NCBI RefSeq assembly: GCF_034087045.1
Contig: NZ_CP139247.1
Location: 2,878,001 to 2,942,000, forward strand
DNA from: Chitinophaga sancti
GTDB lineage: Bacteria; Bacteroidota; Bacteroidia; Chitinophagales; Chitinophagaceae
Direction of reading: 5' to 3'
DNA: 64,000 bases
The notes beneath the pieces were generated by a model. The model ran no database searches, was not told the origin of the DNA, and saw only the letters and a program-made list of their open reading frames with translations. Position 1 is the stretch's first letter, and each line of letters begins with the position of its first letter. Shown here piece after piece: positions 49,859 through 64,000 of this stretch. The translations under genes and the position numbers were made by a program.

Positions 49859-50431
49859 TCAGTGAAAGAATTTTTGAATTTCAGTCAATAAACGAAACGA
49901 GATTAATATCCAGAAATACGTTTTGTCTGATAATTTTGTACGTAAAGCATGGAGAGCCTTACCCATGTGAGCTTCAACTGTTTTAACGGATATGTCAAGC
50001 TCTTTCGCGATCTCAGCGTAAGTTTTCTCTTCAAATCTGCTTTTATAGAATACTTCCCTGCACTTATCAGGCAATGATTCCATGGCAGACAAAACTTCTT
50101 TTTTGAGGGCCCGGACGGATACCTGCTCTTCATTGTTCCAGGTAGCATGTTCCTGTCCTGTGGCAAAACTTTTATAATGCCGCTGCCGGGTTTGCAGGCT
50201 TTTAATCCTGTTCAGGCAGTGATTGTGCGTAGCGGCATAGAGGTAAGCCCGTACTGACTGCTTAATAGATAGCGTTTCCTTTTTCTCCCATAGGAGCATG
50301 AATACCTGTTGTACCGCATCTCTCGCTTCCTCATTATCCTTTAGCAACGTATAAGCATACCGATGCAGATCCCCGAAATACTCGAAGAAGTATTGCTCAA
50401 TTGTATGATTATCTGATAATTTTTCTTTCAC
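49859..50431 (-). CDS. FecI-type ECF sigma factor (orphan locus)
   Basis: This 190-aa sigma has region 2 (about 25-90, EARDAVQQVFMLLWEKK) and region 4 (about 115-170, YAEIAKELDISVKTVEAHMGKAL). The C-terminal tail (YFWILISFRLL followed by TEIQKFFH) is hydrophobic, as in the other FecR-linked sigmas here. The start is GTG, with no better in-frame ATG upstream. It pairs with the FecR gene 2 bp downstream. Confidence 0.9.
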   Translation of the reverse strand: MKEKLSDNHTIEQYFFEYFGDLHRYAYTLLKDNEEARDAVQQVFMLLWEKKETLSIKQSVRAYLYAATHNHCLNRIKSLQTRQRHYKSFATGQEHATWNNEEQVSVRALKKEVLSAMESLPDKCREVFYKSRFEEKTYAEIAKELDISVKTVEAHMGKALHALRTKLSDKTYFWILISFRLLTEIQKFFH

Positions 50432-50685
50432 AAATTCTATAGCCCAATGGTAATTTGCGTCTAAAGGTAGACAACTGAAAAGAACAAATACCCCTATTCA
50501 TATAATTTTTCTTCTGGCAGCATCGGCATGGCCCTTTGCCCAGGCCTTATATATTTCTCTTTTATGAGGTTAATTCGTTAAATTAGACATAACAATAGTA
50601 CGGATAAATTTAAACCTGTCAGTGCAAGGGCTGTCTAATCCAGGGAGTCATATTCAAATTCAACCATCATTTTATTTCCCTTCTT

Positions 50686-51123
50686 ATGCAAAACAACTAT
50701 TTACTCGTTATGGTGCTATGCCTTTTGGCATTGCAACCCGCTTTTGCCCAGAACATAGGAAATTTAGACCAGCGGGAAGTCGCTATAAACTTTATGGAGT
50801 ATGTCCAGGATGGAAAACCCGATAAAGCGGCAAAATTACTGGACCAGAACAAAGTACAATACGACGATCTCCTAAAGTCGAACATGAAAGGTGCGGCAGA
50901 AAGTATTCGGGATGTGGCAGAAATGACCATCCCTGCGGTAACAGCCATGAAGACGGATAGTACGGTGTTTTTCAGGTGCCGGTATTACGCGCCGAAAGAT
51001 AAATTCCCGGATTATTACCAGGTAGATATTCAGTTTGAAGACGAAAAATCATTGAAAATAACTAAGCTTGTATTTTATGACAGGGCGACCCTCGTCAAAA
51101 TGCAAATAGCACAGAAAGAATAA
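50686..51123 (+). CDS. Small secreted protein of unknown function
   Basis: This 145-aa protein has a clear signal peptide (1-21, ALQPAFAQ) and a mature domain with two amphipathic helices (VAINFMEYVQDGKPDKAAKL) followed by beta strands (FFRCRYYAPKDKFPDYYQVDIQFEDE). The layout resembles DUF3887 or NTF2-like small domains, but that is only a guess from the helix-then-sheet order. It is a single-gene unit with its own terminator, divergent from the sigma gene. Confidence 0.7.
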   Translation: MQNNYLLVMVLCLLALQPAFAQNIGNLDQREVAINFMEYVQDGKPDKAAKLLDQNKVQYDDLLKSNMKGAAESIRDVAEMTIPAVTAMKTDSTVFFRCRYYAPKDKFPDYYQVDIQFEDEKSLKITKLVFYDRATLVKMQIAQKE

Positions 51124-51131
51124 ATGAGAAA

Positions 51132-51166
51132 GGGAATCACTATAATGATTCCCATTTTTTTTATAT
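51132..51166 (+). terminator. Terminator after the small secreted protein gene
   Basis: GGGAATCA (51132-51139) pairs with TGATTCCC (51146-51153), followed by A then a run of eight T. It lies 8 bp after the stop and 11 bp before the next start. Confidence 0.85.
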
Positions 51167-51176
51167 TTTTCATTCA

Positions 51177-52241
51177 ATGAAACAGCGCTTACTTTCCTTA
51201 GACTTTTTTCGCGGCGTTACCGTAGCCGGTATGATCCTCGTAAACAATCCCGGAGACTGGGGCCACATCTACGCCCCCCTGGAGCACTCCAAATGGAATG
51301 GCTGCACACCTACAGACCTGGTGTTCCCATTCTTCCTCTTTATGGTAGGCGTAGCAGTATCGTTTGCCCTGAGCAGCAGGAGACAAGACCCTACCTTACA
51401 TAAATCACTCATCCTCCACGTATTTCGCCGTGCGGCCATCATATTTGGCATTGGACTGGCTTTTGGATTGATCCCTAAGTTCGACTTCGCACACGTCCGT
51501 ATACCGGGTGTATTGGCCAGAATTGCGGTAGTTTACCTCATCATATCATTATTGTACCTGAAAACCAGCAGCAAAACCAGGATCTGGATCTGTGGCGGGC
51601 TGTTAGTAGGCTATTACCTGCTCATGACCCTTGTGCCTGTACCGGGTGTGGGGTATCCCAACCTGGAACCGGAAACCAACTTAGGTGCCTGGGTAGACAG
51701 ATTGATCCTCACCCCTGATCACCTCTGGAAGCAATCCCGCACCTGGGACCCTGAAGGACTCTTAAGCACATTGCCTGCGATCAGTACCGGTTTATTGGGG
51801 ATTATGGTGGGTGATTGGGTCAGGAGAAAAGATAAGCCTGAAGCAGATAAGGTTGCCTGGTTATTTACAGCAGGCTTCCTGTCAGTATTGGCAGGGTTGG
51901 TATGGGATGGCTTTTTCCCGATCAACAAACAATTGTGGACCAGTTCATTCGTATTATTTACAGCAGGGCTGGCCAGCATGGGATTAGCGCTTTGCTATTG
52001 GCTCATAGACGTACAGGGATATAAAAGCATTACACCGCCATTTGTAGCATTTGGCCGGAACGCCATCACGGCATATGTACTGTCCGGACTGGTACCAAGA
52101 ATACACAGTATACCTTCCTCCCTGTTCATGCCATTCCTGTCGCCGCTCAATGCCTCACTGGCAGCAGCTATCACATTGGTACTACTCATGCTTATACCCG
52201 TTTGGATCCTGTACAAACGAAATATTATCTTGAAGATTTGA
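51177..52241 (+). CDS. NagX/HGSNAT-like membrane acyltransferase (DUF5009)
   Basis: This 354-aa polytopic protein has about ten transmembrane segments. The family opening LSLDFFRGVTVAGMILVNNPG is followed by LEHSKWNGCTPTDLVFPFFLF with conserved His37. Relatives include the human lysosomal heparan-alpha-glucosaminide N-acetyltransferase and proteobacterial NagX, which is found in GlcNAc and chitin regulons. In a chitin degrader it may act on glucosamine or GlcNAc at the inner membrane, by transfer of acetyl groups or by transport. The activity of the bacterial branch is not settled. It lies apart from the chitinase block and appears monocistronic. Confidence 0.85.
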   Translation: MKQRLLSLDFFRGVTVAGMILVNNPGDWGHIYAPLEHSKWNGCTPTDLVFPFFLFMVGVAVSFALSSRRQDPTLHKSLILHVFRRAAIIFGIGLAFGLIPKFDFAHVRIPGVLARIAVVYLIISLLYLKTSSKTRIWICGGLLVGYYLLMTLVPVPGVGYPNLEPETNLGAWVDRLILTPDHLWKQSRTWDPEGLLSTLPAISTGLLGIMVGDWVRRKDKPEADKVAWLFTAGFLSVLAGLVWDGFFPINKQLWTSSFVLFTAGLASMGLALCYWLIDVQGYKSITPPFVAFGRNAITAYVLSGLVPRIHSIPSSLFMPFLSPLNASLAAAITLVLLMLIPVWILYKRNIILKI

Positions 52242-52284
52242 CCAGTTTTTTGTATTATTAGGCGTCTTCCAAAATCAACTGTCT

Positions 52285-52899
52285 ATGCAATCGGAGAGTC
52301 ATGTGTTATGGTGGAATGCGTTTAAACAGGGGGACTGGGATGCCTTCACCGCTCTTTATGGAGAGTTCTACGAACTATTGAACAACTACGGCCGTAAGTT
52401 TACGCGGGATGAAGACCTCATCCACGATGTAGTGCACGATCTCTTTGTGAGAATATGGACTACCCGCCAGCGACTGGGTCAACCTGTATCTGTAAAAAAT
52501 TACCTGTACAAAGCATTCCGTTCTACCTTATTCCGTAAGATCCAGTCCCTTTCAAAATTTGTGGAACTGGATGGGGAAGGGACTGGCTTTACTGTCAACT
52601 TTATTCCTGATGCATCTTTCCGGCAGGAGGAGCAGGAACTGCGTAAGCAGGTAATAGACCTGGTCAATACCCTCCCTGCCAGGCAACAGGAGATCATCTT
52701 CCTGCGATTTTATGAAGGCATGTCCTACGAAGAGATATCCACGATCATGGACATTAATATGAGTTCTACCTATAAATTATTATATAAAGCCCTCGACAAC
52801 CTGCAAAAGGCCTCCAACAAACAAACCTGGCTGCTTATATGCGGCCTTTTATTCCTGCTGAAAAATATTTCAAAAAAAATTCCGGTTTTGGAGGGATAA
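52285..52899 (+). CDS. FecI-type ECF sigma factor with hydrophobic C-terminal tail
   Basis: This 204-aa sigma has region 2 (about 20-85, EDLIHDVVHDLFVRIWTTRQ) and region 4 (about 125-180, LPARQQEIIFLRFYEGMSYEEI and MSSTYKLLYKAL). The tail TWLLICGLLFLLKN is strongly hydrophobic. The FecR gene follows after 45 bp, then SusC and SusD, so this sigma should control the catabolic cluster downstream. Confidence 0.92.
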   Translation: MQSESHVLWWNAFKQGDWDAFTALYGEFYELLNNYGRKFTRDEDLIHDVVHDLFVRIWTTRQRLGQPVSVKNYLYKAFRSTLFRKIQSLSKFVELDGEGTGFTVNFIPDASFRQEEQELRKQVIDLVNTLPARQQEIIFLRFYEGMSYEEISTIMDINMSSTYKLLYKALDNLQKASNKQTWLLICGLLFLLKNISKKIPVLEG

Positions 52900-52944
52900 T
52901 TTTCAATATGTCATGTATAATACCAATAAACAGGGGATAGCGTG

Positions 52945-53973
52945 ATGAACAATGATAAATATTTAGCGTATTCACTACAGGATTTTTTGGACGATGATGC
53001 TTTTATCAAATGGGTATCAGGCAAAGAACAAGACCCTGCAGCAGCACAATTCTGGAGCGAATTCCCTGTACAATATCCTGCAGCAGCAGCCAACTTTGAG
53101 TTTGCTGTAAATGTGATCCGTTCCTATCGGTCACAGGAGTTCTGGGACAATAAAGATAGCAAAGCCCGTGTACTCGAAAGGATTACGGCGACTATAGAAA
53201 GTCAGGGTGCCCGCCCTACCCGCCTGCGTTGGTTAAACAACTGGGTGCGTGCAGCAGCAGTGGCCCTGGTAGTGACTGCCGGAGGTTATATGATAGTGAA
53301 CCATTACTTCCGCAATCACATGGAGCAGATAGCAACTGGCTATGGCGAAATGAGAACAGTGACATTGCCTGACCATAGTACCGTAACACTCAATGCATCT
53401 TCGGCCATATCATTCAATGAAGCATGGAGTGACACTAAACCAAGAGAAGTATGGATAGATGGTGAAGCCTATTTTGATGTAAAACATATCAACAGAACCG
53501 GCCCTGGCCAACAATTTATAGTACATAGCAATGGTATTAGTATTGAAGTACTGGGTACGTCCTTCAATGTCAGAAGCCGTCATGGCAAAACCAAAGTCGG
53601 ATTGATTACAGGTAAGATCAAAGTAGATTATAATAAGGATCGCTCACTCGTTATGTTGCCTGGTGACTATGTGGAATACGCAGACAATAATTTAATAGTA
53701 ACAAGAAAGTTAGATAAGCCCGAGAAGATAAAGCGCTGGACAGAGATACAGCTTACGTTTACAGACGCCACTTTAGGTGAGATCATAGAAACACTGCAGG
53801 ATAACTATGGCTATACCGTAAAAGTAGCTGATGCCTCACTCAGAAAGTTAAAGATTGAAGGAGATATTAACGTAACGAATGTTGATGAACTCTTAACCGT
53901 AATTACTACTACGCTAAACGTAACAATCGATCAGCCATCCAAAAAGGAACTGGTCATCACATCAGGAAAGTAA
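52945..53973 (+). CDS. FecR-type anti-sigma factor
   Basis: This 342-aa regulator has an N-terminal cytoplasmic segment (about 1-98), a transmembrane helix (about 102-118, AAAVALVVTAGGYMIV), a FecR domain (about 130-235, LPDHSTVTLNASSAI and VLGTSFNVR) and a DUF4974 domain (about 265-338). The ATG at 52945 was chosen over the GTG directly before it because the AGGGGA at 52932-52937 then lies 8 nt upstream. It is expected to relay the STN signal from the SusC encoded 52 bp downstream. Confidence 0.9.
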   Translation: MNNDKYLAYSLQDFLDDDAFIKWVSGKEQDPAAAQFWSEFPVQYPAAAANFEFAVNVIRSYRSQEFWDNKDSKARVLERITATIESQGARPTRLRWLNNWVRAAAVALVVTAGGYMIVNHYFRNHMEQIATGYGEMRTVTLPDHSTVTLNASSAISFNEAWSDTKPREVWIDGEAYFDVKHINRTGPGQQFIVHSNGISIEVLGTSFNVRSRHGKTKVGLITGKIKVDYNKDRSLVMLPGDYVEYADNNLIVTRKLDKPEKIKRWTEIQLTFTDATLGEIIETLQDNYGYTVKVADASLRKLKIEGDINVTNVDELLTVITTTLNVTIDQPSKKELVITSGK

Positions 53974-54025
53974 AAGGGAGTACGCGGAGGAAGCGCGTAT
54001 AAACAGTACACGTAAAAAAAAACTA

Positions 54026-57000
54026 ATGAACATTTTAAACCAAAATCTCATTTTGGGGCTGCTTTCCTGTGCCCTGCTACCAGGTATTGCTGCACCTGTC
54101 AGCGCACAGACGCCCGCGATGTATGCTTCCATGAGGCAGACGGACAATATCCCATACCACAAGGCAGGAACAATGTCACTGAAAGATGCACTGATAAGGC
54201 TGAAAAAGCTGCAAAATATCCGTTTCGCATACAGGGAAGGACTGCTGGACGGTAAAATGGTGCCCGCTGATGTCGTAGACAGAGCAGAAACAATGGAGGC
54301 AGAAGCTGCCTTAAAATTATTACTGTCTGATTTCGCGCTTGCCTACAGCCGGGTCAACAAAACTCAGTATTCTATTTATACAAGGGACGTAAATACGACT
54401 ATTCTCAATTACAACGCACTCTTTGCCGATAAACTGAAGGGGAAAATTACCGGCCCCGATGGCGCACCTGTACCTGGCGCTACCATCTCAGTAAAAGGTA
54501 ATCCCGCTCTCGTAACTGTTGCCAACGATAAAGGAGATTTCGAACTAAATTTAAAAGATGCTACACTACCTATAGTATTGGTAGTTTCATCCATCGGTTT
54601 TGATAAACAGGAGATCACTGTCAACAGTGCTGCTGACCTGGTAAATGTAACACTCGCTGAATCCAACAAAGCACTCTCCGAAGTAGTAGTGACTGCATTG
54701 GGTATCAAAAAGGATAAAAAAGCACTGGCCTATTCAGTGACCGAAGTAAAGGGTAGTGACTTCACACAGGCCCGCGAGGTGAACGTTGCCAATGCACTTA
54801 CCGGTAAAATTGCCGGTGTGAACGCTACCAGCCTGGCCAGCGGCCCTGGTGGTTCCAGCCGCGTGATCATTCGTGGAAACACTTCATTGAATGGGGATAA
54901 CCAACCACTCTATGTTGTAAACGGTATGCCTATTGATAACACCACACCAGGCGGAAGCCCTACTACCGGTGGTGGTGGTCAGAACGTAGACCGTGGTGAT
55001 GGTATTGGTGGCATCAACCCTGATGATATCGAGACCATTAGCGTATTGAAAGGAGGTACTGCTGCTGCACTCTATGGCTCCCGCGCAGCAAATGGTGTGA
55101 TTCTCATCACTACCAAAAAAGGTCGTGCCCGAAAGGGGGTTGGGGTAGATTACAATTCTACCTTCACCGCAGAAACACCTGTTGTATTTACTGACTGGCA
55201 ATATGAATATGGCCAGGGTGATGGCGGTGTAAAACCTTCTTCACAGTCACAGGCAGTAACCTGGGGCCGTCGCAGTTGGGGTGCTAAAATGGATGGTCAG
55301 AATTATATCGCATTCGACGGTAAAGAACATCCTTACTCCCCACAAAAAAATAATATCCAGAATTTCTACCGTACAGGTTCTACCTATACTAACACCGTAG
55401 CTTTTAACGGTGGTAATGAAGCACTGAACTTCCGCTTCTCGCTCTCTAATACCAACAGCAAAAGCATCGTTCCTAATTCAAAGTTCGACAAGAAAATTGC
55501 GAACCTGAACCTGAACGCTGTCCTGGGTAAAAGGATCAGCATCGAAGCAATAGCGCAATATAATGTAGAGAATGCCACAAACCGCTCCAGTTCCGGGGAT
55601 GCTACCGGCAACCCTAACTGGGGCGTTTATATGATCGCGAATACAGTGGACATCCGCTCCCTGGATCCCGGTTATGATGAAAATGGTCGTGAAATACAAT
55701 GGAATGAAACTGCGTACGCTTCCAACCCTTATTTCGTTGTGAACCGCTTCAAAAACAATGATACCAAAAACCGTTTCATTGGTCAGGCTAGTGTGAAATA
55801 CGACATCCTCAAGAACCTGTATGTAAAAGGAAATATCAGCCGCGATTTCTTCAACTACGACTATGTAGGTATCATTCCAACTGGTACAGTTTATACTACA
55901 GGTGCTGCAGGTGAATACAGCGGCATAAGAAATGCAGTATCAGAAACCAACTCTATGCTCACGGCGAACTACAATACCAAACTCGCCGGTACAATCGGGC
56001 TGAACGTACTTGCAGGTGGAAATTCACGCAGATACAAATCAAATCAAACAGCCATTACCGGTACACAGTTCATTATTCCATTCTTCTACAGCTATACCAA
56101 CCTGAGTACTGTCACAACTACGCCTACAAGAAACAATGTTGCGACCAACTCTATTTTTGGTGCGGTAGACCTGGACTATAAATCTGTCGTGTTCCTGAAC
56201 TTCAGCGGTCGTGAAGACTGGTTTTCAACATTAAGTCCTCAGAATAATCATATCTTTTATCCTGCTGTAGGTAGCAGCTTCATCCTTTCTGATGCAGTGC
56301 AGCTGCCTAAAGCTATCAGCTTTGCCAAAGTACGCGCCTCATGGGCACAGGTAGGTGGTGCAACGCCTGATCCATACATCCTGAACCAGAGTTATAGTAT
56401 GGTACAGGGTGGACATGAAGGTCAACCTGTACAAACAATCACACAGTCGAACGGTGCAAACCTGGTCACCAATTCCAACCTCAAGCCACTCACGTCTACT
56501 ACTTACGAAGTAGGTGTTGAAGCACAGCTCCTGAATAACCGTATCGGTTTCGATATCACTTACTACAACAAGCATACGACGAACGATATCGTAACTACGG
56601 CTATCTCTACCACCTCCGGCTATAATAATGCACTGCTGAATGTGGGTAAATTATCGAACAAGGGTATTGAAGTACTGTTAACCGGTACACCAGTAAAATC
56701 TAAAAACTTCACTTGGAATGTGAGCTATAATGTGGCCTACAACCAGAGCAAAGTAGAACAACTGGCAGCTGGTCTCACTACCCTCCAGATGGCTACCAGC
56801 GTAGGTAGCTGGGCATTCGTACACAATTCCGTAGGGAGCCCCTATGGTGTGATCAAAGGGTATAGCGTAGCGAAAAATGAAAAAGGGGAGACTATTTACA
56901 ATAGCGCTACCGGGTACGAGCAAAAGAGTGCGTTGAAGACTTTAGGTAACGGTGTACCACCGTTGACCATGGGTTTGAGCAATACCTTCCATTATAAACG

Positions 57001-57472
57001 CCTGTCACTCGATGTACTGGTAGACGGTAAATTCGGCAACAAGGTATTCTCTGTAATGAATGTATATGCTACCCGTTTTGGTCTGCACAAAAAGACATTG
57101 AAAGGTCGTGAAAACGGTCTGGAACTGAGTGGCGTTGATCAGAATGGCAATGCTTATACCAACACCATCCCGGTATCTAATCTGCGTCTTTACTACGACA
57201 ATACCAAGAATTATACAGATCAGTTCATGTACGACGGTAGCTTCGTAAAACTGCGCCAGGTAGTACTGAGTTACCAGTTACCTGTGCATAATCTGAAGAT
57301 CGTACAGAGCGCTTCCCTGTCTTTCGTAGCGCGTAACCTGCTTATCCTGTACAAGAATACGGACAACTTTGATCCGGAATCCAGCTACACAAACAGCAAT
57401 GCCCAGGGCTTCGAAGCGTTTGGTATTCCACGCACCAGAAGTTTTGGTCTGAACCTGATGGCTAAATTCTAA
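54026..57472 (+). CDS. SusC/RagA TonB-dependent transporter with STN domain (second locus)
   Basis: This 1148-aa transporter has a signal peptide (about 1-28) and an STN domain (about 49-118, MSLKDALIRLKKLQNI). A carboxypeptidase-regulatory-like domain (about 140-215) is followed by the plug, starting at LSEVVVTALGIKKDKKALAY, with the SusC signature IRGNTSLNGDNQPLYVVNG, and then the barrel. The plug carries a Gly-rich insert (SPTTGGGGQNVDRGDG). It belongs to the FecI/FecR-controlled operon and should import the substrate of the catabolic enzymes encoded after it. Confidence 0.95.
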   Translation: MNILNQNLILGLLSCALLPGIAAPVSAQTPAMYASMRQTDNIPYHKAGTMSLKDALIRLKKLQNIRFAYREGLLDGKMVPADVVDRAETMEAEAALKLLLSDFALAYSRVNKTQYSIYTRDVNTTILNYNALFADKLKGKITGPDGAPVPGATISVKGNPALVTVANDKGDFELNLKDATLPIVLVVSSIGFDKQEITVNSAADLVNVTLAESNKALSEVVVTALGIKKDKKALAYSVTEVKGSDFTQAREVNVANALTGKIAGVNATSLASGPGGSSRVIIRGNTSLNGDNQPLYVVNGMPIDNTTPGGSPTTGGGGQNVDRGDGIGGINPDDIETISVLKGGTAAALYGSRAANGVILITTKKGRARKGVGVDYNSTFTAETPVVFTDWQYEYGQGDGGVKPSSQSQAVTWGRRSWGAKMDGQNYIAFDGKEHPYSPQKNNIQNFYRTGSTYTNTVAFNGGNEALNFRFSLSNTNSKSIVPNSKFDKKIANLNLNAVLGKRISIEAIAQYNVENATNRSSSGDATGNPNWGVYMIANTVDIRSLDPGYDENGREIQWNETAYASNPYFVVNRFKNNDTKNRFIGQASVKYDILKNLYVKGNISRDFFNYDYVGIIPTGTVYTTGAAGEYSGIRNAVSETNSMLTANYNTKLAGTIGLNVLAGGNSRRYKSNQTAITGTQFIIPFFYSYTNLSTVTTTPTRNNVATNSIFGAVDLDYKSVVFLNFSGREDWFSTLSPQNNHIFYPAVGSSFILSDAVQLPKAISFAKVRASWAQVGGATPDPYILNQSYSMVQGGHEGQPVQTITQSNGANLVTNSNLKPLTSTTYEVGVEAQLLNNRIGFDITYYNKHTTNDIVTTAISTTSGYNNALLNVGKLSNKGIEVLLTGTPVKSKNFTWNVSYNVAYNQSKVEQLAAGLTTLQMATSVGSWAFVHNSVGSPYGVIKGYSVAKNEKGETIYNSATGYEQKSALKTLGNGVPPLTMGLSNTFHYKRLSLDVLVDGKFGNKVFSVMNVYATRFGLHKKTLKGRENGLELSGVDQNGNAYTNTIPVSNLRLYYDNTKNYTDQFMYDGSFVKLRQVVLSYQLPVHNLKIVQSASLSFVARNLLILYKNTDNFDPESSYTNSNAQGFEAFGIPRTRSFGLNLMAKF

Positions 57473-57496
57473 TTGTTCATGTTACACACTCGAATT

Positions 57497-59017
57497 ATGA
57501 AAATGCGATTTAACTTTCTTATATATACAGCCATAGCAGCTACATTACTGATCCAGTCATGTGACAAGGGCTTTGAGGAAATGAATGTGAACCCGGATGC
57601 ATCCAGCAGCGTAGTACCGGAATATATGTTCAGCAAAGCACTGCTGGACGCGCTGAACAACAGCTGGTTTGCCACAGATGCACTGGCATGTGGGGGATCT
57701 ATGCAGCAATTTGCTACATACAAAGACGTACCGGGTATAGGAGACAAATATTATTTTCAACAAGGTACCTATCCCTACGATTACTTTACAACCGGATTTC
57801 CCGGAGCTGTAAATGAAATAGCGACCGTTATCAATGCACTGGATTCTTCAGAAGTCAATGAATTGTCCATCTCCCGCATCTGGCGCGTATTCATCATGCA
57901 CCGCATAACGGATCTCTATGGCGACATTCCTTATTCTGAAGCTGCACAGGGATATACGACTAACAACTTTACGCCCAGTTACGATGCACAAAAGGACATC
58001 TATGCCGATATGCTGAATGAACTGGATGAAGCTGCTCAGGCGCTCGATGCCTCCAAAACAACTTTTGGCGCAGGTGATTATATCTATGAAGGGGATGTAA
58101 CCAGGTGGAAGAAATTTGCTTACTCCCTGATGCTGCGCCTGGGTATGCGCATGTCAAAAGTCGATGCAGCATCTGCACAGACCTGGGTACAGAAGGCAAT
58201 TGCAGGTGGTGTTATTACAGATGATGCAGACATTGCTACCATGAAATATACAGATGGTACATCGCTGAACAGGAATCCAAGAGCGGCTGCCCTGCTTTCC
58301 AACGACTACGCGGTGGCAGATGGTACGAGCAATACAGAAGGTGGTAAACTGGCCCGGACTTTTATCAATTTGCTGAAAGATAATAATGATCCCCGCCTGA
58401 ATGTAATGGCCATCGTATGGAAGGATGGAAAGGCAGATACCAGCACCGCATTGCAATTCGGTATGCCCAATGGGCTGCTGCTGAAACCAGATAGCTTCGT
58501 GAATTATTCAGAACCAAATCCGTCAACAATCTTACAATATACTGCACCTATCATTGTGATGAGTGCTGCAGAAGTAAATCTTTACCTGGCAGAAGCGGCT
58601 GTAAGAGGCTGGTATTCCGGTGACGCAGCTACTACTTTCTCTGCCGCCATTGGTGCTTCTATGCGCAACTGGGCACAATTTGGCAGTGCAGGGGTGATTG
58701 CTGAAAGTAAAATCACAGCTTACCAGGCAGCACATACCCTTACTGGTACCACAGATCAACAGCTACAAATGATCGGCAATGAATACTATGTATCCATGTT
58801 CCTCGATGAACAGGAGATTCATGCCAACTGGCGCCGTTTGGGCTACCCTGCACTCACGCCTGTGAATATCTCCGGCAATATTACTGGTGGTACCATTCCC
58901 CGCCGCCTCCTGTATCCACCTTCAGAAGAAAGCGTGAACGCAGCAAGCCTGCAGGAAGCGGTAGACAGACAAGGCGCAAACCTGATGACAACCCGCATAT
59001 GGTGGGATAAAGAATAA
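57497..59017 (+). CDS. SusD-like lipoprotein (SusD_2 type)
   Basis: This 506-aa lipoprotein has a lipobox (LLIQSC, Cys22) and the SusD_2-type opening FEEMNVNPDASSSVVPEYMFSKA split around residue 28. Further family features are the RWRVF/HRITDLYGDIPYSEAAQG helix and the C-terminal RRLLYPPSEESVNAAS. The ATG at 57497 is preferred because upstream in-frame codons (TTG at 57473, ATG at 57479) put charged residues before the signal. It forms the lid for the SusC gene 24 bp upstream. This subtype is common for peptide or amino-acid-type as well as glycan ligands, so the substrate remains open. Confidence 0.92.
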   Translation: MKMRFNFLIYTAIAATLLIQSCDKGFEEMNVNPDASSSVVPEYMFSKALLDALNNSWFATDALACGGSMQQFATYKDVPGIGDKYYFQQGTYPYDYFTTGFPGAVNEIATVINALDSSEVNELSISRIWRVFIMHRITDLYGDIPYSEAAQGYTTNNFTPSYDAQKDIYADMLNELDEAAQALDASKTTFGAGDYIYEGDVTRWKKFAYSLMLRLGMRMSKVDAASAQTWVQKAIAGGVITDDADIATMKYTDGTSLNRNPRAAALLSNDYAVADGTSNTEGGKLARTFINLLKDNNDPRLNVMAIVWKDGKADTSTALQFGMPNGLLLKPDSFVNYSEPNPSTILQYTAPIIVMSAAEVNLYLAEAAVRGWYSGDAATTFSAAIGASMRNWAQFGSAGVIAESKITAYQAAHTLTGTTDQQLQMIGNEYYVSMFLDEQEIHANWRRLGYPALTPVNISGNITGGTIPRRLLYPPSEESVNAASLQEAVDRQGANLMTTRIWWDKE

Positions 59018-59037
59018 TCCTCTCAACTTTTGAAATC

Positions 59038-59499
59038 ATGCAAAACCAAAGAAGATCCGTATTGAAAAAAATGTTTGCCGCCGCAGCTGGTATGACCGGT
59101 ATCAGTGCCGTAGCAAAGGCTGCCGGGGCGACACTGCCTGCCACAACAGAAAATGGAAATGTAGTTTATGACCAGGAAGTACCTTTATTTTCCAGTTTCA
59201 AAGTGCATGGCAACACCGTATACATTGCAGGTATCGGCGCCCACTTTGAAGGCGATATTAAGGCACATACAGATCATGTGCTGAAAGAAATGGAAGCACA
59301 GTTGAAAAAGGCAGGTTCTTCGATGGACAAGGTATTGAAAGTAAGCGTATTCCTGCATGACCTGAACGATTACAAGGCCATGAATGAGGTATATAGAGGC
59401 CGGTTTGGCGCTAACCCTCCGGTACGCACTACCGTAGCTGTTTATGGAGGAGTGCCGGGAGACTCTCTTGTAGAGATGGACTGCATTGCATCTCTATAA
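59038..59499 (+). CDS. Exported RidA-family enamine/imine deaminase
   Basis: This 153-aa protein has a RidA (YjgF/UK114) domain over about 40-153. The substrate-binding Arg130 (PPVRTTVAV) and the conserved Glu146 near the C terminus are both present. RidA proteins hydrolyse reactive enamines and imines released by PLP enzymes, giving 2-oxo acids and ammonia. The N terminus (QRRSVLKKMFAAAAGM) looks like a twin-arginine signal, unusual for a family that is normally cytosolic. The next gene encodes a PLP enzyme with a similar signal, and the two may act in sequence in the periplasm. Confidence 0.88.
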   Translation: MQNQRRSVLKKMFAAAAGMTGISAVAKAAGATLPATTENGNVVYDQEVPLFSSFKVHGNTVYIAGIGAHFEGDIKAHTDHVLKEMEAQLKKAGSSMDKVLKVSVFLHDLNDYKAMNEVYRGRFGANPPVRTTVAVYGGVPGDSLVEMDCIASL

Positions 59500-59520
59500 G
59501 AATAGTTCCCCCTTCTCTAC

Positions 59521-59550
59521 GGGATCGCTTATTAAAGCGATCCCCCCTTT
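59521..59550 (+). terminator. Hairpin between RidA and PLP-enzyme genes
   Basis: GGGATCGCTT (59521-59530) pairs with AAGCGATCCC (59535-59544) around ATTA. The tail is C- and T-rich (CCCTTTCTTCC) rather than a clean T run, so termination is likely partial and may adjust downstream gene dosage. Confidence 0.6.
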
Positions 59551-59577
59551 CTTCCTCACTTTTTTATTTTACTACTC

Positions 59578-60816
59578 ATGAACCGCAGAGACTTATTGAA
59601 AAACATGTCTGTGATCCCTGTATTCGGGGCTTTCGCAGGCAGTGCTAATATATTGCCATTAACTGACGCCGCAGCACCTGCTGTAGCAAAAGATTATTTC
59701 AAAGATTTGGGTATCCGCACTTTCATCAATGCGGCAGGCACCTACACAGCAATGACAGGATCGCTCATGCGTCCTGAAGTGATGAATGCCATCAACTATG
59801 CTTCGAAAGATTTTGTATTGCTCGATGAGCTACAGGATAAAGTAGGCGCCCGCATTGCAGAACTGCTGAAATGTGAATATGCTACAGTTACTTCTGGTTG
59901 TGCATCTGCCATGACCCTGGGAGCCGCCGGTGTGCTCACAGGCATGGATGAAAAAAAAGTAGCACAGCTGCCACACCTGGAAGGTACTGGTATGAAAACA
60001 GAAGTGATCATCCAGCGCAAGCATGATATCGCATATGCACATGCCTTGAAAAATACAGGGTTGAAGATCGTTTATGTAGATACCAAAGAAGAACTGATCA
60101 GCGCTATCACCGACAAGACTGCGCTGATGTATTTCCTGAATGCAAATAACTTTGATGGACCGGTACAGGTAGAAGAGTTCCTGAAAATAGCACAGGCACA
60201 CAACATCCCTACCATGATAGATTGTGCGGCAGACGTGCCTCCTGTGGAAAACCTGTGGAAGTATACGAACATGGGGTATGACCTGGTTTGTTTTTCAGGT
60301 GGTAAAGGTATTCGTGGCCCACAAAGTGCCGGTTTACTGCTGGGCAGAAAGAAATACATTCAGGCAGCGCGCCTCAGTGCTCCTCCAAGAGGGAATACCA
60401 TTGGCCGTGGTCTGAAAGTAAACAAAGAAGAAATACTCGGTATGCTGATAGCGCTGGAAACTTATCTGGCTACCGATCATGACAAAGAATGGAAAATGTG
60501 GGAAGCACAAATTAAGTTGATTGGCGATGCAGCAACTTCCGTAGGTGGTGTGACCACTACCGTGAAAGTACCGGCTATCGCCAATCACGTGCCTACCCTG
60601 CATATAAGCTGGGATCCCAAAAAGATCCCTGCTACCGCAGCAGAATTAAAAGAGAAACTAAGAAGCGGTTCTCCATCCATAGAAATAGCTGATGGGGAAA
60701 ACCAGCATGCCGTTGCCATCACTACCTGGATGCTGGTACCCGGACAGGAAAAGATAGTAGCCGCAGCGCTGAAAAAAGCGCTCACAGAGAAAGCTTTGTT
60801 AGAAACGCATGGTTGA
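59578..60816 (+). CDS. Exported SelA/DgaE-like PLP-dependent enzyme
   Basis: This 412-aa fold-type I PLP enzyme has an aminotransferase class V-like core. The PLP lysine is most likely Lys243 in CFSGGKGIRGPQSAG, with an upstream Asp (MIDCAADVPP) expected to contact the pyridine ring. The family includes selenocysteine synthase SelA and DgaE, a D-glucosaminate-6-phosphate ammonia-lyase. The RxTFINAAGTYTAMTGSLM opening is typical of the non-SelA branch. The N terminus NRRDLLKNMS is twin-arginine-like, as expected if a cofactor-loaded enzyme is exported folded. It is predicted to eliminate ammonia from a 2-amino-3-hydroxy acid. Genes for RidA and a deacylase flank it. Confidence 0.85.
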   Translation: MNRRDLLKNMSVIPVFGAFAGSANILPLTDAAAPAVAKDYFKDLGIRTFINAAGTYTAMTGSLMRPEVMNAINYASKDFVLLDELQDKVGARIAELLKCEYATVTSGCASAMTLGAAGVLTGMDEKKVAQLPHLEGTGMKTEVIIQRKHDIAYAHALKNTGLKIVYVDTKEELISAITDKTALMYFLNANNFDGPVQVEEFLKIAQAHNIPTMIDCAADVPPVENLWKYTNMGYDLVCFSGGKGIRGPQSAGLLLGRKKYIQAARLSAPPRGNTIGRGLKVNKEEILGMLIALETYLATDHDKEWKMWEAQIKLIGDAATSVGGVTTTVKVPAIANHVPTLHISWDPKKIPATAAELKEKLRSGSPSIEIADGENQHAVAITTWMLVPGQEKIVAAALKKALTEKALLETHG

Positions 60817-60841
60817 TAAATTGGAGTGTGTTTAGTCACCC

Positions 60842-60875
60842 ACAGGGAGCCTCAAGGCTCCCTGTTAATTTTTAC
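60842..60875 (+). terminator. Hairpin between PLP-enzyme and amidohydrolase genes
   Basis: ACAGGGAGCC (60842-60851) pairs with GGCTCCCTGT (60856-60865) around TCAA, followed by TAATTTTTACC. It lies 25 bp after the stop codon and is probably a partial terminator or processing site within the cluster. Confidence 0.7.
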
Positions 60876-60905
60876 CACACAGGTCTTAACATTAAAGTAA
60901 CAGAA

Positions 60906-62141
60906 ATGAGGTTTTTAATATTTCTCATGCTGGCTGGGAGTGCTTTGCATGCACAACAATACAGCCTCCTCATAAAAAACGGGCACGTCATTGACCCGCG
61001 CAATCATATTGATGCAGTCATGGATATTGCACTCAGAGAAGATACCATCGCAAAGGTAGCACCACACATCGATGCTACAAGAGCCGCCACCATCATAGAT
61101 GCAAAAGGAATGTACGTGACGCCGGGGCTTATTGATATTCACACACATAATTTCATTGGTACCACGCCTAACAGGTATTTAAATAATAGTTACAGTGCCG
61201 TAGCACCAGATGGCTTTACTTTCCGTTGCGGTGTGACGACTGTAGTAGATGCTGGTAGCTCGGGATGGCGCAGCTTTGAAACGTTTTTGGATCAGACCAT
61301 CCGCCATTCGCAAACGAGGGTATTGGCATTTCTGAATATTGTAGGTGGTGGTATGCGTGGTGGGCCTTATGAACAGGATACGAATGATATGGATGCAAAG
61401 ATGACAGCACTGACCATCCGCCAGTATAAGAAATATTTAGTAGGGATCAAGGTGGCACACTTTGAAGGTGCAGAATGGACACCCGTAGATAGAGCGGTAC
61501 AGGCAGGAGAGATGACGGGAACCCCGGTGATGATTGACTTTGGAGGTAGTAATCCACCTTTGCCTCTCAATGAATTGTTTGAAAAACACCTGCGCCCCGG
61601 CGATATCTTTACCCATGTATATGCCAATGTAAAAGGACGTATGCCTATCGTAGATGAAAATGGAAAAGTACCTGATTACATCTGGGCTGCGCGTAAAAAA
61701 GGCATCCTCTTCGATGTGGGGCATGGTGGCACCAGCTTTTCCTACAAGATCGCTATGCCGGCTATGAAAGCGGGATTCCTGCCTAATACGATCAGTACGG
61801 ATATTCACACAGGCAGTATGAATGCTGCCATGAAAGACCTGCTGAATGTGATGTCGAAAACCATGGCAATGGGCATGAGTTTTAATGCCCTGATCAAAGC
61901 TACTACAGATGATGCTGCAAAAGCCATTCGTCATGAAGAACTGGGTGCTCTTTCAGAAAACACCGTGGCGGACATTGCTATATTAAGATTAGAGAAAGGA
62001 CAGTTTGGCTATGCAGATCCTATGGGTGTAAAACTGGAAGGGAAAGAAAGGATCGCCTGCGAAGTCACCATCCGTGCGGGTAAGGTCGTGTATGACCTGA
62101 ATGGTCTGGCAGATAGTATCTCAGTACAAACCGAAAATTAA
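60906..62141 (+). CDS. Exported amidohydrolase/deacetylase (COG3964-like)
   Basis: This 411-aa amidohydrolase-superfamily enzyme has a Sec-type signal peptide (1-17, GSALHAQ). The binuclear metal site looks complete: His79 and His81 (IDIHTH), the bridging lysine Lys182 (VGIKVAH), histidines in FTHVYAN and DVGHGG, and the catalytic Asp in STDIHTG. It resembles the 'incorrectly annotated dihydroorotase' group, members of which hydrolyse acetylated 2-hydroxy or 2-amino acids and are often encoded beside a SelA-like PLP enzyme. The ATG at 60906 was chosen because it directly precedes the signal peptide. It probably removes an acyl group before the PLP step. Confidence 0.87.
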   Translation: MRFLIFLMLAGSALHAQQYSLLIKNGHVIDPRNHIDAVMDIALREDTIAKVAPHIDATRAATIIDAKGMYVTPGLIDIHTHNFIGTTPNRYLNNSYSAVAPDGFTFRCGVTTVVDAGSSGWRSFETFLDQTIRHSQTRVLAFLNIVGGGMRGGPYEQDTNDMDAKMTALTIRQYKKYLVGIKVAHFEGAEWTPVDRAVQAGEMTGTPVMIDFGGSNPPLPLNELFEKHLRPGDIFTHVYANVKGRMPIVDENGKVPDYIWAARKKGILFDVGHGGTSFSYKIAMPAMKAGFLPNTISTDIHTGSMNAAMKDLLNVMSKTMAMGMSFNALIKATTDDAAKAIRHEELGALSENTVADIAILRLEKGQFGYADPMGVKLEGKERIACEVTIRAGKVVYDLNGLADSISVQTEN

Positions 62142-62144
62142 AAT

Positions 62145-63059
62145 ATGAAACTGTTTTTTTTGATTCCACTCTGTCTGCTGCTGAATAGCGTTGCCGCGCA
62201 GACAATATCTAAAGAGGAACTGATATTTTTAACGGCCGACTGGAAAGGAGAACGCTTTCCGGACGGCCGTCCCCGTATTCCTGATGCAGTGATTGCACTG
62301 GCCAAAGAGGTAGGGTTGGATGATGTATGGACGATATTGGAAGGAGAGGGATACCATTGCCAGTTTGAAGGTGGATTTAAAATGATCCATCCGGATAGCG
62401 TGATGGCAGGTAGAGCGGTCACGGCCATGTTTATTCCGGCCAGACCGGATATAGAAGCACATCTGAAAGAACGCGGACAACAAAAAGGCTGGAAAGGCAA
62501 TAGTAATTCATGGCCCATCCAACAATTGACGAAAGGGGATGTATATGTGGCGGATGGATTCGGTAAAATTGCAGATGGTACATTGATCGGTTCTACACTA
62601 GGAAATGCCATCTATGCCCGCTCTGGCAATGGTGTAGTCTTCAATGCATCGGCCCGTGACCTGGATGGGCTGGAAGAGATCCCGGGTTTTAATGCGCTGG
62701 TGAGAGACTGGGATCCATCCTTTTTGAAAAACGTAATGTTGTCTGGTATGAATGTACCTATTCGTATAGGAAAGGCTGTTGTACTGCCGGGTGACTTGGT
62801 ACTAACTTCCAAAGAAGGCGTTATTTTCGTACCTGCGCATCTCGCAGAAAAAGTAATTGCTATCGCTGCCTTTATACAGGTCAAAGATGCATTTAGTTTT
62901 GAGATGCTGAAGACTGGAAAATATACTCCCGGAGAACTGGACAATAACTGGACAGATGCTATCAGGCAGGCTTTTCTGGAATGGCAGCATAAGCAGGCGG
63001 GTAAAGCACCTATGACCAGGCAGGAGCTGGACAAAATGTTAGAAAAACGAACCTGGTAA
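62145..63059 (+). CDS. Exported RraA/HMG-aldolase-like protein
   Basis: This 304-aa protein has a signal peptide (1-18, LNSVAAQ) and an RraA-like domain (about 60-240), including GDVYVADGFGKIADGTLIG and the Arg171-Asp172 pair in FNASARDLDGLEEI that binds substrate and metal in class II pyruvate aldolases. A C-terminal extension (about 245-304) is helical. RraA-family enzymes range from RNase E regulators to HMG/CHA aldolases; the export signal makes the aldolase role more likely. It starts 3 bp after the amidohydrolase stop and would cleave a 4-hydroxy-2-oxo acid to pyruvate and an aldehyde. Confidence 0.85.
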   Translation: MKLFFLIPLCLLLNSVAAQTISKEELIFLTADWKGERFPDGRPRIPDAVIALAKEVGLDDVWTILEGEGYHCQFEGGFKMIHPDSVMAGRAVTAMFIPARPDIEAHLKERGQQKGWKGNSNSWPIQQLTKGDVYVADGFGKIADGTLIGSTLGNAIYARSGNGVVFNASARDLDGLEEIPGFNALVRDWDPSFLKNVMLSGMNVPIRIGKAVVLPGDLVLTSKEGVIFVPAHLAEKVIAIAAFIQVKDAFSFEMLKTGKYTPGELDNNWTDAIRQAFLEWQHKQAGKAPMTRQELDKMLEKRTW

Positions 63060-63076
63060 AAAATAAATATCCACTT

Positions 63077-64000
63077 ATGAATCATCTCGGCCCTTATATT
63101 ATTGGTTTTTGGGTACTTTTAGCAATATTATTTTCGGGAAAACCACAAACTCGCGGCTACGTGTATACGTTAATGATCTTTGCCGCTGTGACAACTTCGC
63201 TATACTATCCGCAATATTTTACCCATGTTGGGGATTACGACCTTGCAAAACTAATCACACCTTTATTACAGATCATCATGTTCGGCATGGGAACAGCCAT
63301 GAGTCTCCGTGATTTTTATGGTGTGATCAAAATGCCTATGGGTGTACTGACAGGTGTACTTTGTCATTTCACGATCATGCCTTTCATTGGCTGGGGGCTG
63401 GCGCATCTCTTTAAGTTTCCCCCGGAAATCGCTGCAGGCGTGGTATTGATAGGCACCGTGCCTTGTGGCATGGCGTCGAACGTCATCTCTTACCTGGCAA
63501 AAGCGAACCTCGCATTGTCAGTAACACTTACGGCTATTTCCACGATGCTGGCGCCTTTCGTGACACCATTGCTCATGCGCTGGCTGGCGGGAAGTTATAT
63601 TGATATCAGCGTCACTCATATGATGTGGGACATCTTTAAAATGGTGATCCTGCCGGTGGCAGCGGGCCTGGTCTTCAATCATTTTTTGAGTGGCAGGGCG
63701 AAATGGCTGGACAATGTGATGCCTAAGATCTCCATGGCTGCCATTGGATTTATCATTGTGATCATTACTGCCCATGGGCGGGATAGCTTGCTGGATGTAG
63801 GTTTATTATTGATACTTAGTTCACTGATACACAATTTATCAGGTTATGGACTGGGTTACTGGTTGTGTAAGCTGATCCGGATGAAGGAGCAGGATTGCCG
63901 TACCATAGCGATAGAAGTAGGAATGCAAAATGGAGGGTTGGCATCTGCGATAGCGAAAAGTATGGGTAAGATAGCAACGGTAGGGTTGGCGCCGGCCGTG
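63077..64000 (+). CDS. Bile acid:sodium symporter family transporter (BASS/SBF), 3' end outside window
   Basis: The frame opens with ATG at 63077 and is still open at base 64000, giving 308 residues without a stop. It has eight or more transmembrane segments, with the BASS motifs TVPCGMASNVISYLAKAN (about residues 129-146) and EVGMQNGGLASAIA near the visible end, which form the crossing helices at the sodium and substrate sites. BASS proteins import organic anions, including pyruvate and other 2-oxo acids in some branches. It follows the RraA-like gene by 17 bp and so belongs to the cluster. It is the likely inner-membrane importer for the product. Confidence 0.88.
   Translation, partial: MNHLGPYIIGFWVLLAILFSGKPQTRGYVYTLMIFAAVTTSLYYPQYFTHVGDYDLAKLITPLLQIIMFGMGTAMSLRDFYGVIKMPMGVLTGVLCHFTIMPFIGWGLAHLFKFPPEIAAGVVLIGTVPCGMASNVISYLAKANLALSVTLTAISTMLAPFVTPLLMRWLAGSYIDISVTHMMWDIFKMVILPVAAGLVFNHFLSGRAKWLDNVMPKISMAAIGFIIVIITAHGRDSLLDVGLLLILSSLIHNLSGYGLGYWLCKLIRMKEQDCRTIAIEVGMQNGGLASAIAKSMGKIATVGLAPAV

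Follow-up and report, generated by a model that had tools for sequence, protein, structure and literature searches.

N-acetylglucosaminate is converted into 2-keto-3-deoxygluconate (KDG) in Pseudoalteromonas prydzensis by the Ong pathway (OngB, OngC, OngD/RidA and KdgK), which is reported to proceed by deacetylation and deamination dependent on pyridoxal phosphate (PLP) (PMC9537276, PMC12017989). According to the first of these reports, deletion of the RidA gene of this pathway abolished growth on N-acetylglucosaminate (GlcNAc1A) (PMC9537276). A route for N-acetylglucosamine (GlcNAc) has also been predicted in Natrarchaeobius, from a deacetylase, a glucose dehydrogenase, a homologue of D-glucosaminate-6-phosphate ammonia-lyase (DGL) and a RutC-family gene found around chitinases (PMC12343721). 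Here we describe a cluster of nine genes in Chitinophaga sancti. The window analysed is a 64,000-nucleotide (nt) stretch, bases 2878001-2942000 of a single-contig genome of 8.32 Mb, and the cluster runs on its forward strand from position 52285 to 64072, with intergenic gaps of 3-89 nt. It encodes an extracytoplasmic function (ECF) sigma factor, a FecR-type anti-sigma factor, a SusC and SusD pair, RidA, a DgaE/SelA-like PLP enzyme, a COG3964-type amidohydrolase, an RraA-like protein and a carrier of the bile acid:sodium symporter (BASS) family (Table 1). On balance, this cluster probably provides the core steps for breaking down N-acetylated hexosaminic acids, such as N-acetyl-D-glucosaminate or its galacto isomer, in the periplasm and without phosphorylation.

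In the proposed pathway, SusC and SusD would import the substrate or its precursor, which would be sensed via FecR and the sigma factor. An unoxidised substrate would be oxidised at C1 by a periplasmic glucose/sorbosone dehydrogenase-cytochrome c, as its linkage to the cluster suggests, and the resulting lactone opened by a lactonase. The COG3964-type enzyme would then take off the acyl group, the Tat-exported (twin-arginine translocation) DgaE-type enzyme would eliminate ammonia, leaving a 2-keto-3-deoxy sugar acid, and RidA would hydrolyse the enamine or imine intermediate. Finally, the RraA-like enzyme would probably split the product into pyruvate and an aldehyde, and the BASS carrier, replaced in some relatives by a tripartite ATP-independent periplasmic (TRAP) or a major facilitator superfamily (MFS) carrier, would import the 2-oxo acid. 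We infer the substrate, every reaction and the direction of transport from gene families and linkage. A preliminary description of this DNA had drawn a similar route from import to aldol cleavage. That route is supported in part: its amino-sugar-acid chemistry gains weight from the co-occurring dehydrogenase, the sugar genes of relatives and the loss of the DGL arginines, and an amino-sugar acid is the likely substrate. The oxidation step, encoded elsewhere, had been missed.

The nine genes named in that description are all present on one strand, and their families were confirmed by domain and profile scores. Relatives were collected by scanning a genome collection with words from the DgaE-type protein of the window, which gave 34 loci, 15 of Chitinophaga type and 19 others. 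The neighbourhood search proposed earlier, for exported DgaE/SelA-like, RidA, COG3964-type and RraA-like sets, recovered the full block in all 15 Chitinophaga-type loci, of which one is labelled Flavihumibacter and one Flexibacter. These 15 do not count as independent, L040 and L041 for instance being contigs from a single genome. Because the block is kept intact in every one of these loci, a chance neighbourhood was dropped as an explanation. The nearest named relatives of the DgaE-type protein are those of [Flexibacter] sp. ATCC 35208 (99%) and Chitinophaga silvisoli (96%).

Among the 19 other loci, several of which are shortened by contig ends, the COG3964 type was found in 17, RraA in 14, RidA in 13, a second RidA-type protein in 10, TRAP in 6 and BASS in 5. 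A fusion of glucose/sorbosone dehydrogenase and cytochrome c was present in 13, one of them merely a 270-residue piece, together with PIG-L (4 loci), SGL lactonase (4), YbhE-type lactonase (2) and carbohydrate-binding modules of family CBM9 of two kinds (6 and 3). Since the first scan had used words from the window protein itself, a second sample was drawn by searching 394 genomes of the phylum with the DgaE-type alignment. Eight genomes were positive, one being this genome; the seven others supplied eight independent loci, two from one genome. L095 (a contig end with the DgaE-type gene alone) and L066 (the window's own downstream DNA) were excluded from the locus counts. RidA and the COG3964 type occur in all eight independent loci, SGL in 7, the dehydrogenase in 6, BASS in 5 and RraA in 4. 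The DgaE-type enzyme, the COG3964 type and a RidA are thus found together in 14 of the 19 other loci and in 8 of 8 drawn independently. In a single relative, L059, there are genes for DgoK (a KDGal-type kinase), an aldolase of the 2-keto-3-deoxy-6-phosphogluconate (KDPG) type and a DgoT-like MFS carrier; no signal is visible in the kinase or the aldolase. L059 and L050 encode two sulfatases with an SGSH_C domain. The dehydrogenase, the lactonases, a DUF386 fusion described below, the L059 genes and the sulfatases, each weak alone, jointly point to hexosamine-derived sugar acids.

Export signals had been claimed for all four enzymes, and the sequence supports a Tat type for RidA and the DgaE-type enzyme and a Sec type for the amidohydrolase and the RraA-like protein. 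Signal types were assigned by rules of our own and by inspection by eye. Related clusters devoid of such signals would have spoken against the claim; the signals are kept across the relatives. The RidA signal of the window reads QRRSVLKK. With RR accepted at any place within residues 1-75 of the called frame, which is laxer than our automatic signal rule, the pair is present in 30/30 RidA and 46/46 DgaE-type proteins of loci L032-L065, and in 8/10 RidA (the other two have RK) and 13/13 DgaE-type proteins of the independently drawn loci. The stricter automatic rule called a Tat signal for 14/30 and 44/46, respectively. When the DgaE-type enzyme was compared with its 120 best database homologues, 115 of these also showed a stricter RR motif, the other five starting late, inside the signal as judged by eye. 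TatC is encoded in the genome. For the two Sec-type proteins, the Gln that follows the probable cleavage site is invariant in the alignments (Gln-17 of the amidohydrolase, 26/26; RraA-like protein, 17/17). This invariance rests on the alignments and not on the plain AxAQ pattern, which is matched by 43/57 amidohydrolases and 19/33 RraA proteins, many of the others having RAQ, LAQ or SQ by eye. A Gln after the cut is what the Q-rule described for Bacteroidetes predicts for signal peptidase I substrates (PMC5837995). The alignments comprised the window protein with 24 of 46 DgaE-type, 25 of 44 amidohydrolase and 16 of 29 RraA sequences. The use of Tat for the PLP enzyme and RidA, and of Sec for the other two, would match a need for cofactor loading before export. 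The four enzymes are thus very likely periplasmic, as judged from their signals.

The DgaE-type enzyme scored 150 bits, and 192 bits with the subfamily model TIGR01437, short of its cut-off of 385. Its PLP lysine, Lys-243, is kept in 25/25 aligned sequences. The positions of DGL Arg-301, Arg-332 and Arg-346 are occupied in the window enzyme by Thr-340, a gap and Trp-384, and Arg is found there in 0/25 aligned sequences. The loss of these arginines, which lie near the docked phosphate of DGL, would be expected where no kinase acts and supports amino-sugar-acid chemistry; profile and domain scans detected no sugar-acid kinase of the KdgK type among the nine genes. The DgaE-type/SelA-like family comprises at least 7,995 clusters at 1e-20 among the 7,999 candidate homologues listed. 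In L056, L057, L060, L089 and L096 a longer DgaE-type protein of 534-573 residues carries an extra C-terminal part. Some clusters contain as many as four genes of the DgaE type and three for amidohydrolases (L060), as if several isomers were handled.

RidA carries Arg-130, which we take to be the conserved active-site Arg of RidA proteins, and which is invariant in 31/31 sequences including that of the window. Detoxification by RidA alone was considered as a role and dropped. The amidohydrolase exceeds the NF006689 cut-off of 371 with 434.8 bits, and it possesses H79, H81, K182, H237, H273 and D299, presumably its metal site. The nearest solved chains are 8je0 (166 bits) and 2ogj, D-aminoacylase chains reaching 27 bits only. 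In one relative (L064:12560-14356) an exported COG3964-type amidohydrolase is fused to DUF386, a YhcH-type openase, just before RraA, and a protein of the same 600-residue length occupies the same place before RraA in another (L065:8449-10248).

Deacylation and ammonia elimination would also suit an N-acylated β-hydroxy D-amino acid of the serine or threonine type, scavenged and made into a 2-oxo acid for BASS. N-acetyl-D-serine is said to have been a weak first hit for a COG3964 enzyme, a statement for which we found no paper. The SusD-like_2 domain is uninformative about sugars, and OngC, the cytosolic counterpart of the deaminase, is reported to act on D-serine and D-threonine as well (PMC9537276). 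We nevertheless regard such a substrate as quite improbable, as serine and threonine leave unexplained the link to a sugar dehydrogenase, the sugar-type genes of relatives and the aldolase-like gene.

The link to the dehydrogenase was established at the genome level. In the 394-genome searches the best three or four first-look candidates were scored per genome. The exported COG3964-type enzyme was found in 12 of 394 genomes, namely in 8/8 with the DgaE-type enzyme vs 4/386 others (Fisher p = 4e-14). A full-length dehydrogenase-cytochrome c (PF07995 plus cytochrome c) scoring above 600 bits was found in 8/8 vs 1/386 (p = 7e-16), a cut picked after the gap between 638 and 530 was visible; with the preset 1e-100 threshold the figures were 8/8 vs 42/386 (p = 4e-8). 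Counts per genus were identical for the two tests, COG3964 and 600 bits: 7/7 vs 1/165 (p = 1e-11). In this genome the dehydrogenase-cytochrome c lipoprotein is encoded at 651524-653170 (G000:C1, L085), 2.3 Mb from the cluster and among neighbours unrelated to the cluster genes, and it also lies outside the cluster in G191. Because it is far from the cluster in these two of the eight genomes, the link is more than proximity. Matches of 1e-4 to 1e-6 were set aside as weak; one near the lone dehydrogenase starts like a cysteine desulfurase by eye. Within 36 Chitinophaga genomes the dehydrogenase was present in 8/10 with the DgaE-type enzyme vs 0/26 without it (p = 1.5e-6), a weak support since the positive genomes possibly belong to a single clade.

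Sorbosone dehydrogenases act on aldehydes. The dehydrogenase-cytochrome could then oxidise the aldehyde released by aldol cleavage rather than an amino sugar, and the substrate would be an aldonate taken from outside, as might be read from the 15 Chitinophaga-type clusters, which hold no dehydrogenase gene of their own. We consider this unlikely, given that 6 of the 8 independent loci contain an SGL lactonase (PF08450; the YbhE type is PF10282) as well as the dehydrogenase, a pairing that fits aldose oxidation.

Several observations weigh against a periplasmic pathway for hexosaminic acids. The domain scan detected no glycoside hydrolase among the nine genes. The exported kind of COG3964 enzyme occurs in four genomes of one genus without the DgaE-type enzyme (G358, G370, G409 and G433), and G420 has the dehydrogenase without it. 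Conversely, two of the ten DgaE-positive Chitinophaga genomes (G007 and G024) have no full-length dehydrogenase, the match there being shorter and scoring about 395 bits. The SGL lactonase, present in 35 of the 36 Chitinophaga genomes, was uninformative as a linked marker and was discarded. A lytic polysaccharide monooxygenase of the organism's own was likewise rejected as a source of aldonate, AA10 being absent from 36/36 genomes searched (23 of this genus). His-162 and His-163 of DGL are not conserved in the DgaE-type enzyme; the DGL variant H163A is still active (PMC9529869). Moreover, the structure nearest to the DgaE-type enzyme, tied with DGL, is Cap15, described in its title as oxygen- and PLP-dependent. 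We consider it very improbable that the enzyme, instead of being an ammonia-lyase, uses PLP together with oxygen as Cap15 does: the neighbouring RidA points to an enamine or imine product, and phmmer favours DGL (124 bits) over Cap15 (92 bits). As a separate observation, the four genomes of one genus also have a shorter dehydrogenase match.

The remaining points on this side concern the RraA-like protein. Its model is closest to 3noj, the 4-hydroxy-4-methyl-2-oxoglutarate/4-carboxy-4-hydroxy-2-oxoadipate (HMG/CHA) aldolase, and its Arg-171/Asp-172 align with Arg-123/Asp-124 of that enzyme and are kept in 15/17 aligned sequences. The position of aldolase Asp-102, which we assume to be important for aldolase activity, is Ser-150 in the window and Asp in 8/17. 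RraA is absent from 5 of the 19 and 4 of the 8 relatives' loci, some of which are ended by contig edges. Furthermore, the Flavobacterium RraA-family enzyme FlDet is reported as a dehydratase/decarboxylase of 2-keto-3-deoxy-glucarate, inactive on KDG in the work described (PMC8563752). Because the Asp-102 position varies, FlDet does other chemistry and some relatives have no RraA, aldol cleavage by the RraA-like protein is only probable.

The absence of RraA from several relatives and the FlDet precedent raise the alternative that the pathway is identical as far as the 2-keto-3-deoxy acid, but that this acid enters the cell whole through BASS, TRAP or a carrier like DgoT and only then undergoes cleavage or phosphorylation. 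The RraA-like protein would in that case catalyse another step, such as that of a dehydratase/decarboxylase. TRAP replaces BASS in five loci of the first sample (L048, L050, L052, L054 and L055), and the DgoK, aldolase and carrier genes of L059 suggest that the final breakdown of a 2-keto-3-deoxy hexonate may be cytosolic in this relative. Import of the whole acid in the window system is rather unlikely, for RraA bears a signal and adjoins BASS in 15/15 Chitinophaga-type loci, and the aldolase Arg-Asp pair is largely kept; in the HMG/CHA aldolase Arg-123 is assigned to enolate stabilisation and Asp-124 to metal binding (PMC5065237). In addition, the DUF386 protein YhcH is reported to open N-acetylneuraminate for its aldolase (PMC8141875), and DUF386 on the exported amidohydrolase of L064, like the same-length protein of L065, stands before RraA as expected for an aldolase in the same compartment. 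The BASS protein is 331 residues long at full length, the last 72 nt of its gene lying beyond the window. The in-window part scored 228 bits with TIGR00841 and 222 bits with the PanS-type (keto-acid carrier) model NF047939, both under cut-off.

Beyond a periplasmic core for hexosaminic acids, we put forward tentatively that the periplasm of Bacteroidota houses a whole amino-sugar route that needs neither ATP nor phosphorylation, the dehydrogenase-cytochrome c passing sugar electrons to respiration. It is conceivable, and proposed with the same reserve, that the lactonase, deacylase, PLP ammonia-lyase, RidA, openase and aldolase all act on the outer side of the cytoplasmic membrane, with import limited to small acids, acetate and ammonia. 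Should the proposed pathway be real, the periplasm would be the site of ammonia elimination with PLP and of aldol cleavage on a sugar acid, steps known from the cytosol. The exported part of the SelA-like family would gain a function, a substrate class would be predicted for a SusCD locus that has no glycoside hydrolase, and oxidised ends of chitin or glycosaminoglycans might drain into the route.

Table 1. Features of the locus, in window positions.
Feature	Position	Strand	Family or other evidence
NagX-like membrane protein (HGSNAT-type)	51177..52241	+	NF046061 210 bits (cut-off 480, not reached); PF07786
ECF sigma factor	52285..52899	+	Sigma70_r2, r4_2
FecR-type anti-sigma factor	52942..53973	+	PF04773, PF16344 (FecR + FecR_C)
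SusC TonB-dependent importer	54026..57472	+	Plug, CarbopepD_reg_2
SusD lipoprotein (SusD-like_2)	57497..59017	+	PF12771 276 bits; start ATG 57497 by eye
RidA, Tat-type signal; predicted periplasmic enamine/imine hydrolase	59038..59499	+	PF01042 (Ribonuc_L-PSP)
DgaE/SelA-like PLP enzyme, Tat-type signal; predicted ammonia-lyase for an unphosphorylated 2-amino-3-hydroxy sugar acid	59578..60816	+	
Hairpin between dgaE and the amidohydrolase gene	60842..60865	+	Terminator-like scan; fold z -3.0
COG3964-type amidohydrolase, Sec signal; predicted N-deacylase	60906..62141	+	NF006689 435 bits
RraA-like protein, Sec signal; probable pyruvate aldolase	62145..63059	+	PF03737
BASS-family carrier; probable 2-oxo acid importer	63077..64000, on to 64072	+	PF01758

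SusC and SusD are adjacent, as in SusCD uptake loci. In our reading by eye SusC has a signalling region ahead of its Plug and CarbopepD_reg_2 domains, where the domain scan called none. The true start of the amidohydrolase gene is probably 60906 rather than 60813. The NagX-like gene ends 43 nt before the sigma gene and is directly upstream of it in 14/15 Chitinophaga-type loci. It is possibly the first gene of the transcript, and its membership in the system is uncertain; as a core component it was dropped, since it is found only in Chitinophaga-type loci. In five bacteria, NagX proteins are reported to be important for the use of glucosamine (PMC9007349). The next gene after BASS, at 64345-65382 (L066:1346-2383), encodes a TIM-barrel protein of the AP_endonuc_2 family (xylose-isomerase-like) with a Tat-lipoprotein-like start; it lies 3′ of BASS in 15/15 Chitinophaga-type loci and immediately adjoins it in 12.

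The hairpin that follows dgaE has a counterpart at the same position in the 12 aligned relatives by eye. In many relatives it is bigger and precedes a T run, and inspection by eye shows paired changes. It is possibly an intra-operon terminator, a processing site or a stabiliser of part of the transcript. A second hairpin, of 10 pairs, lies between ridA and dgaE (59521-59544); by eye it is also present in L032 and, with different letters, in L033. The gap between these two genes is 12-36 nt in most other Chitinophaga-type loci, and in three it is structured and about 120 nt long. No Rfam family scored above threshold in 50400-64000, and promoter-like sites showed no excess over shuffled sequence.

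The preliminary description knew of no described pathway with this chemistry in the periplasm. Among the matches listed from the open-access literature there is indeed no periplasmic version; the same chemistry is, however, reported from the cytosol (PMC9537276). The Natrarchaeobius route differs in being archaeal, and it is presented as a prediction in which phosphorylation is assumed (PMC12343721). The RraA-like protein shares its fold and Arg-Asp pair with the HMG/CHA aldolase 3noj and other RraA-family enzymes; it differs from 3noj (238 residues) in its length of 304 residues, its export signal and the Ser at the Asp-102 position. The amidohydrolase belongs to the family of the COG3964 enzymes 2ogj, 2ics, 8wzy and 8je0 and is set apart from them by its export signal. 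The trio EF0837-EF0839 reportedly places a COG3964-type enzyme with SelA-like and KDPG-aldolase-like genes. DGL resembles the window enzyme in family, fold, PLP lysine and predicted elimination chemistry; however, it acts on a 6-phosphate after uptake by the phosphotransferase system, its Arg-301/332/346 are missing in the window enzyme, and its system has the aldolase DgaF where the window cluster has the RraA-like protein. The Ong pathway is alike in deacetylating first and then deaminating with PLP, in having RidA in its gene set and in TonB-dependent uptake. It differs in being cytosolic, KDG being phosphorylated there, whereas the window cluster is predicted to be periplasmic and non-phosphorylating. 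OngB belongs with the D-aminoacylases and binds its metal through Cys/His/His, whereas the window enzyme scores as NF006689; OngC is of fold type III, whereas the DgaE-type enzyme models like DGL/SelA, a fold that we take to be type I. With a deacetylase and a deaminase from groups other than those of the Ong enzymes, the window cluster is not a member of the Ong pathway but would work like it.

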